Translations under genes and position numbers: made by a program | From: Peptococcaceae bacterium | Lineage (GTDB): Bacteria > Bacillota > Dehalobacteriia > UBA4068 > JAAVYR01 | DNA length: 64,000 nucleotides | Direction of reading: 5' to 3' | NCBI GenBank assembly: GCA_022791255.1 | Contig: JAAVYR010000014.1 | Span: 1 to 64,000, forward strand | Notes under the pieces: generated by a model | What the model was told of the DNA's origin: nothing | Databases searched by the model: none | Seen by the model: the letters and a program-made list of their open reading frames with translations, nothing else | In this document: one piece after another, positions 53,021-54,345 of the stretch | Numbering within the stretch: the stretch's first letter is position 1 | Layout of the letters: every line of letters begins with the position of its first letter

Positions 53021-53413
53021 TTAACGACCTTTTCGTCCATCCTGGTGCCGTTTCAAATCTACCAATCTGTCATTACTATCTTTCATAAATTTTGCCAGCT
53101 TATCTTCAAAAGGCATCTCATCTTTTTGTCTCGGAGCTGAAAATACAGGTTGGGGAGACGCCACAACCTTAGGCTTTGGCGGAAGTGCCTGCTTAATGGA
53201 AAGACCAATCTTACCATGGTCACCAATGCTGACTACCTTTACTTTAACAGCATCCTTTTCCTTTAAAAAATCGCTAACTTCCTTCACATAAGCGTCAGCC
53301 ACCTCAGAAATATGCACCAGACCCGTTACCCCCGGCGCGATTTCTACAAAGGCACCAAACTTTGTAATGCCAGTTACTACCCCATCTACAACGCTTCCAA
53401 CGGTCAAATCCAT
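53021..53413 (-). CDS. S1 RNA-binding domain protein (YabR/GSP13-like)
   Basis: A 130-residue protein with one S1 domain at the N-terminus (DLTVGSVVDGVVTGITKFGA, GLVHISEVADAYVKEVSDFL), followed by a basic Pro/Lys-rich tail of about 60 residues ending in KRHQDGRKGR. It probably binds RNA or ribosomes. I chose the ATG at 53413, which gives the family-typical N-terminus; GGAGG is 13 bases upstream, and an ATG at 53425 is too close to it. It lies between divIC and ppx, as in many Firmicutes. Confidence 0.9.
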   Translation of the reverse strand: MDLTVGSVVDGVVTGITKFGAFVEIAPGVTGLVHISEVADAYVKEVSDFLKEKDAVKVKVVSIGDHGKIGLSIKQALPPKPKVVASPQPVFSAPRQKDEMPFEDKLAKFMKDSNDRLVDLKRHQDGRKGR

Positions 53414-53479
53414 GAGAAAAACCATACCTCCAGTGTTCAATTTACTTTTCCTTATTATATTCTGGGCAGCGTTGTTTTG

Positions 53480-53911
53480 TCAATGCAAATCCCCTGCTTT
53501 AATATTTGGGTTATATTCAGGAATATCGTCATCTACCGTTTTTCCCGGCAATACCAAAGTCTCTCCTTCATAGACAAAACCTAAATGTTCTCTAGCCACC
53601 CGCTCTATATAAGAAGGGTCATCCAAAAGCGCTTTGGTTTCTTCTAATTCTTTCTGCTTATCCAATTTATCCTGCTTCACTTGTTCAAAATAAGCCACTT
53701 CTGCCTGGATTTGTTGAAACTGCACAAACTGCTTGCCAAACTGTAAACAACAAAAGCCTAGCCCACAGATAATGCATAGCTTGGCAAAGGATAACTTCCT
53801 TCGCTTAGGCGCTCTCCTCCTGCCTTGGCCGGCAGATGGCTGAGAGGCAGGAACCATTTCCAGTTGGTCAGCGTCTGACCAATCAGGCACTGCATCATAC
53901 TTCTGTCTCAT
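53480..53911 (-). CDS. divIC: Septum formation initiator (DivIC/FtsB-type)
   Basis: A 143-residue bitopic division protein. Residues 1-38 are cytoplasmic and basic toward the membrane, residues about 40-62 form the transmembrane helix, and residues about 65-95 an extracellular coiled coil (QAEVAYFEQVKQDKLDKQKE). The conserved DPSYIERVAREHLGFVYEGE follows. It should join FtsL and DivIB in the divisome. The ATG at 53911 is preceded by GGAGGAGG within the upstream gene, which it overlaps by 17 bases, so translation is probably coupled. Confidence 0.92.
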   Translation of the reverse strand: MRQKYDAVPDWSDADQLEMVPASQPSAGQGRRRAPKRRKLSFAKLCIICGLGFCCLQFGKQFVQFQQIQAEVAYFEQVKQDKLDKQKELEETKALLDDPSYIERVAREHLGFVYEGETLVLPGKTVDDDIPEYNPNIKAGDLH

Positions 53912-54134
53912 CTTCATCCTCCTCCATCTCCGCCATGTCAAGTACTGCACCAGGAATGACAATGACTACTTCATAACCTTTGGTTCTTGCCCGATTATAA
54001 AGAGTAGCAACAGAGCTTGCGCTGATTTTCAGCATCTTGGCAATTACTTCTGCAGACTTTCCCATTTCCTTTAATGTTACTACTTGCTTTTCTCGAAAGC
54101 TTAGCTTTTCCGCGCCACGGATTTCCATCTGCAT
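53895..54134 (-). CDS. Small helix-turn-helix protein (sigma region 4-like)
   Basis: A 79-residue protein. Residues about 10-50 form a LuxR/sigma-region-4-type helix-turn-helix (LSFREKQVVTLKEMGKSAEV, SASSVATLYNRARTKGYEV). The C-terminus is strongly acidic (EMEEDEDETEV). No sigma region 2 is present, so it is not a sigma factor itself. The start follows GAGGGGTGA. It is first in the operon carrying divIC, behind a promoter overlapped by DnaA-box-like sequences (54243-54295). The function is unknown; regulation of the division operon is inferred from position. Confidence 0.82.
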   Translation of the reverse strand: MQMEIRGAEKLSFREKQVVTLKEMGKSAEVIAKMLKISASSVATLYNRARTKGYEVVIVIPGAVLDMAEMEEDEDETEV

Positions 54135-54242
54135 CTGTAATCACCCCTCTCTAACTTCCTCTAACTGTCCCTACCTGGCAAATCCCCTAAAAGGAGCATT
54201 CTATCCCAAAGAAAGTCAGAATTATCCCAAACCCTTCTCTCT

Positions 54243-54295
54243 TTATCCACATTATATCCACATTTTGTGGACAAATCAAGTACAAGATATACACA
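54243..54295. promoter_or_regulatory. DnaA-box cluster over the HTH-divIC promoter
   Basis: Minus-strand TTGATT (54274-54279) and TATAAT (54251-54256) are spaced by 17. Around and within them lie TTATCCACA (54243-54251, perfect DnaA box), ATATCCACA (54254-54262), TTGTCCACA on the minus strand (54266-54274) and ATATACACA (54287-54295), each one mismatch from TTATNCACA. The first two are 11 bp apart. The second and third form a TCCACA/TGTGGA inverted repeat. Confidence 0.7.
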
Positions 54296-54306
54296 AATAC
54301 ACATAA

Positions 54307-54345
54307 GGAAATGCCAATATTTAGTAAATACTGTCATTTCCTTTT
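54307..54345 (-). terminator. Hairpin after yabQ
   Basis: AAGGAAATG and CATTTCCTT form a stem with inner ATATTTA/TAAATA pairing. The T run is good on the plus strand and weak on the minus strand, the direction of yabQ. Confidence 0.6.

Follow-up and report, generated by a model that had tools for sequence, protein, structure and literature searches.

In the 64,000-nucleotide stretch of a Peptococcaceae contig analysed here (the window), the promoter of an operon carrying a small helix-turn-helix (HTH) gene and divIC is covered by five contiguous 11-bp units, each with TGT in the same phase. Related genomes show the same phasing in front of their HTH genes, with which it is associated, and its DnaA-box-like sites carry an extra constraint that holds TGT in register. 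We infer that the cluster is a promoter-embedded operator through which the HTH protein, binding head-to-tail, regulates its own operon, and on which DnaA boxes would be superimposed in many lineages; taken whole, we give this reading an even chance of being right. Across these Bacillota, the HTH protein is strongly conserved and encoded beside a division gene, and many families retain the promoter array. Should the array serve both DnaA and the HTH protein, it would provide a direct, testable link from replication initiation to DivIC supply; otherwise it remains a pointer to the motif bound by a regulator that is uncharacterised and likely relevant to division or sporulation.

Array, promoter and operon

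The original prediction named four DnaA-box-like sites in 53 bases over the -10 and -35 of the HTH-divIC operon, two of them 11 bp apart. All four are present at 54243-54295, each with at most one mismatch to TTATNCACA (Table 1), and they cover TTGATT-17-TATAAT on the minus strand. The starts of TTATCCACA (54243) and ATATCCACA (54254) are 11 bp apart, leaving 2 bp between the 9-mers, which is the cooperative tandem spacing of DnaA boxes. The four boxes are real, but an in-phase unit, TGTACTTGATT (54284-54274), had been overlooked, and the total is five units.

Table 1. Features at the HTH-divIC promoter, in window coordinates; array units are given in their order on the minus strand (54295 to 54241)
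Feature	Position	Strand	Remarks
Operator array (putative), five contiguous 11-bp units	54241..54295	-	TGT every 11 bp; sole match to the 3-unit pattern in this genome
Array unit 1, TGTGTATATCT	54285..54295	-	
Array unit 2, TGTACTTGATT	54274..54284	-	includes -35 hexamer
Array unit 3, TGTCCACAAAA	54263..54273	-	
Array unit 4, TGTGGATATAA	54252..54262	-	overlaps -10
Array unit 5, TGTGGATAAAG	54241..54251	-	
Perfect DnaA box, TTATCCACA	54243-54251	+	within array unit 5
DnaA-box-like site, ATATCCACA	54254-54262	+	1 mismatch; within array unit 4
DnaA-box-like site, TTGTCCACA	54266-54274	-	1 mismatch; array unit 3 within TTGTCCACA
DnaA-box-like site, ATATACACA	54287-54295	+	1 mismatch; within array unit 1
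-35-like hexamer, TTGATT	54274..54279	-	
-10-like hexamer, TATAAT	54251..54256	-	spacer 17 bp
Inverted repeat	54305..54343		19-nt arms, 89% complementary, almost no loop; between yabQ and array
Small HTH gene, 79 aa	53895..54134	-	Pfam PF08281 (Sigma70_r4_2) above cut-off
divIC (FtsB/DivIC family)	53480..53962	-	PF04977; overlaps end of HTH gene
S1-domain protein gene	53021..53440	-	PF00575; next on same strand after divIC

One-mismatch DnaA boxes are not enriched over the whole window (61 seen, 66 expected), but their clustering here exceeds chance density: four sites per 53 bp are unique in the window, all other 53-bp stretches holding fewer than three, and first-order Markov simulation (n = 60 windows) never produced more than three. 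Coincidental grouping of AT-rich words at a promoter, with which the absence of window-wide enrichment would agree, is contradicted by this simulation and by the conservation of the phasing across the phylum; it was rejected, its probability being negligible. Genome-wide, the array is the best match to two tandem boxes at 11 bp (1 mismatch), followed by the dnaA promoter of the same genome (2 mismatches), which has a similar inverted box pair plus an 11-bp tandem pair. Rfam gave nothing close to gathering score on the array region.

Genes of the YabP and YabQ families lie upstream of the HTH gene. The inverted repeat at their end of the array, similar in sequence in both congeners, is possibly a terminator of these upstream genes. 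Within the operon, a perfect TTGACA-18-TATAAT promoter-like site (window 53483-53454, minus strand), between divIC and the S1-domain gene, suggests a second, internal promoter.

Phasing upstream of the HTH gene

HTH relatives were drawn from whole genomes and named contigs, and the set was later widened with other families (n = 130 upstream regions). These sequences are related, not independent, and p-values from their counts are therefore only nominal. The cluster is conserved between related genomes, a check proposed with the original prediction, in the form of its phasing: at least three TGT chained at exactly 11 bp were found in 103/130 regions, and the remaining 27 (about 20%) had no chain of three. 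Antisense strands and other step sizes served as controls, because sequence reversal is uninformative for a word that reads TGT in both directions. Chains at steps of 8, 9, 10, 12, 13 and 14 bp occurred in at most 1/130 regions each (12 bp, 1/130), antisense chains at 11 bp in 2/130, and shuffled upstream sequences gave a chain frequency of about 0.1%. For TGT[AG], 180 pairs spaced by 11 bp were counted against 2.2 expected; there were 117 at 22 bp and 90 at 33 bp, and all these counts, like those at 44 and 55 bp, greatly exceed expectation.

Arrays in the relatives usually comprise 3-7 units, mostly TGT[ACG][GC], in the typical order [TGTAG / TGTAA / TGTAC], then TTTGTMCACA, then TGTGGATAA units. 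A constrained 3-unit pattern, searched in 61 genomes, returned 16 matches, of which 11 immediately preceded HTH genes, in the sense orientation, and a 12th was at an HTH locus on the other strand (G044). A TGTGGA-type 11-bp array was also seen in another genome (G045:C7:157428-157468), inside a small coding region that looks prophage-like (ThyX-like and sigma-like ORFs, by eye).

A DivIC-like ORF followed the HTH gene in 123/123 loci with at least 700 bp of downstream sequence, as scored with a DivIC-like profile built iteratively from these very ORFs. Two genomes of one family (G058 and G342) have the HTH gene without divIC behind it, and the array is still at the HTH gene, as for an operator that stays with its regulator gene despite changed neighbours; the divIC of G058 itself is without an array upstream. 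No chain was found upstream of divIC in genomes lacking the HTH gene (0/20 loci). The array's presence at HTH genes without divIC and its absence at divIC in HTH-less genomes indicate that the element tracks the HTH gene. Judged from these comparisons, it is a conserved, putative regulatory element belonging to the HTH gene, not to divIC. Co-occurrence of this kind marks the gene as target, not its product as binder. Lineages differ in where the array sits relative to the predicted promoter (a -10-like element seems, by eye, to lie just upstream of it in Syntrophomonas-like loci), as would be expected of an operator more than of core promoter sequence.

The HTH protein and other candidate binders

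Alignment of the window's HTH protein with 43 relatives gave identities of 59-75% and an invariant core, and both PF08281 and PF00196 are matched by 44/44 HTH relatives. The regulator is widespread, being present in 121/300 genomes sampled from the phylum, and apparently undescribed: the literature searched contained no account of it. Its AlphaFold model (mean pLDDT, 81) consists of a beta strand, three helices, a second beta strand and a disordered acidic tail. The closest folds by Foldseek were GerE, NarL/LuxR-type proteins and sigma region 4, all with weak E-values; the best match was GerE 1fse (rmsd, 0.7-0.8 over 42-43 residues; E-values, 0.07-0.13, which are weak). A PDB sequence search yielded no informative relative, its hits being for the most part designed repeat proteins, plus one transposase. 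Like GerE of B. subtilis, the protein is a small, stand-alone LuxR-type HTH, but the flanking beta strands and acidic tail are its own. BldC of Streptomyces, likewise a very small protein made up of a DNA-binding domain only, binds direct repeats head-to-tail in variable number (PMC5859096), as we propose for the HTH protein; BldC, however, is MerR-like and reads 9-bp repeats, whereas the protein here is GerE/sigma-4-like and its repeats are of 11 bp. Membership of the BldC family was rejected, the best folds being GerE, NarL/LuxR and sigma region 4 instead of a MerR-like winged HTH.

Units of 11 bp place each TGT on the same helical face, making a direct-repeat array that the HTH protein most likely binds cooperatively, head-to-tail, in control of its own operon. 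Such occupancy would span the -35 to about the start site and block RNA polymerase, with negative autoregulation of HTH and DivIC as the expected outcome; because the array covers the -35/-10 region in this genome, the HTH protein is probably a repressor. Where units double as DnaA boxes (many lineages, this one included), DnaA might compete with the HTH protein or add to repression, and its binding there would link replication to HTH/DivIC expression. More specifically, the HTH regulator might polymerise head-to-tail on its own array while DnaA competes for the superimposed boxes, so that the replication state would set how strongly the regulator and DivIC are expressed; such a device, dedicated to coupling replication with division, is a tentative proposal, which we think may well prove too specific.

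The 11-bp TGT repeats might instead be the target of a response regulator of the OmpR family, the WalR (YycF) ortholog being the likeliest candidate, which would tie HTH-DivIC expression to cell-envelope signals. A TGT direct repeat at 11 bp is a WalR-type signature: the published sites, TGTWAH-N5-TGTWAH (PMC9210968) and, in S. aureus, TGTHH-N6-WGTNDD (PMC10746227), both have an 11-bp period. WalRK is described in all Firmicutes and is tied to division, WalR operators share with the array a link to division/envelope genes, and the dnaA promoter of S. aureus is among the targets of WalR. However, TGTWAH is fitted by only 46/429 units, and the B. subtilis-type pair occurs in only 6/130 loci and nowhere in the window array. 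By eye, units 3-4 fit the S. aureus motif, which is loose enough to be expected often by chance. WalR operators moreover consist of two repeats and WalR has many such two-unit targets, whereas the arrays described here are longer and differ in their unit consensus, and those with at least three constrained units occur almost exclusively at the HTH promoter. WalR is a serious rival as binder, but we regard it as an unlikely explanation of the array.

DnaA boxes within the phased units

A perfect TTATNCACA DnaA box is present in 71/130 HTH upstream regions, versus 1.3% in shuffles. With perfect boxes at these loci and in the window, DnaA might be the sole ligand, a high-affinity box and low-affinity sites spaced at 2 bp nucleating an oligomer that would repress or tune HTH-divIC with replication state. 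The 2-bp spacing matches that of low-affinity DnaA arrays in E. coli (PMC6727663) and the optimum of T. maritima DnaA, for which pairing is best when two boxes share their orientation and are separated by 2 bp (PMC10316083). The dnaA promoter of this genome shows the same combination of inverted and tandem pairs. There is also precedent in B. subtilis, where DnaA binds the ftsL promoter (PMC8203912, PMC11019786); with that promoter and the E. coli and T. maritima oriC arrays, the cluster shares TTATNCACA-type sites, 2-bp tandem spacing and a division-gene context. Among the papers searched, none combined divIC and DnaA box.

It differs from those arrays in that many lineages, Pelotomaculum for example, lose the boxes and keep the phasing: of the 38 regions that contain neither TTATNCACA nor TTGTNCACA, 30 have a chain of at least three. 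Yet TTATNCACA boxes are present in most of the oriC regions checked in the box-less lineages, and box identity is thus not conserved in step with oriC. The target is the HTH gene, and an 11-bp preference was not found in oriC regions of these bacteria. The units TGTAG, TGTAC and TGTAA, at the upstream end, make poor DnaA sites. The forward box deviates systematically from the consensus: the ratio of TTGTMCACA to TTATMCACA in the forward (sense) central box is 79:19 at HTH loci versus 8:121 at oriC (odds ratio, 63). Antisense boxes at HTH loci are canonical (TTGT:TTAT, 16:87). The sense box, with TTGT in place of TTAT, therefore departs from the DnaA consensus in the direction that keeps TGT in phase. 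On this balance, we consider DnaA acting alone rather improbable.

Binding by the HTH protein, with DnaA boxes laid over its units, would accommodate a further pattern. Position 7 of the unit is C in 74% of TGTCC units, completing TTGTCCACA, and T in 75% of TGTGG units, completing TGTGGATAA; one protein reading TGT units does not itself predict base correlations that rebuild DnaA boxes. Two constraints, TGT phasing and DnaA boxes, seem from these patterns to be superimposed. The function first proposed for the cluster, a coupling of DnaA level to divIC expression, survives in part: DnaA binding is plausible (perfect boxes, 2-bp tandem spacing, similar pairs at the dnaA promoter), but coupling is not the best primary reading, since the phasing is tied to the HTH gene and survives without DnaA boxes.

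The other function proposed, passive titration of DnaA as by datA or oriC-proximal DnaA-box clusters, was rejected on box numbers and dnaA distances and is highly improbable. Several boxes do fall in 53 bp, and four of the relatives with both on one contig have the locus 64-95 kb away from dnaA; strong boxes, however, usually number 0-2 versus up to 11 in the oriC regions of near relatives, and the array sits on a promoter and tracks a gene, not a chromosomal position, its distance from dnaA being 357 and 768 kb in two further genomes with both on one contig. The cluster had also been described as far from any dnaA/oriC signature; dnaA is on another contig than the array, so distance from oriC is not decidable from the window. 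The array was rejected as oriC itself, which would be beside dnaA/dnaN with many boxes; the oriC of this genome lies around dnaA at C10:134192-136275.

Two other sites were seen in this genome. Three perfect TTATCCACA lie in a 35-bp stretch inside the comF-ftsE intergenic region, upstream of ftsE-ftsX (G000:C10:77951-77985; L151:2452-2486), forming another DnaA-box cluster at a division operon. The second (G000:C23:112770-112801; L152) is CTATCCACAAAATGTGGATAGTCTGTGTATAT, an inverted plus 11-bp arrangement between D-Ala-D-Ala carboxypeptidase-like and acetolactate-synthase-like genes (named by eye).
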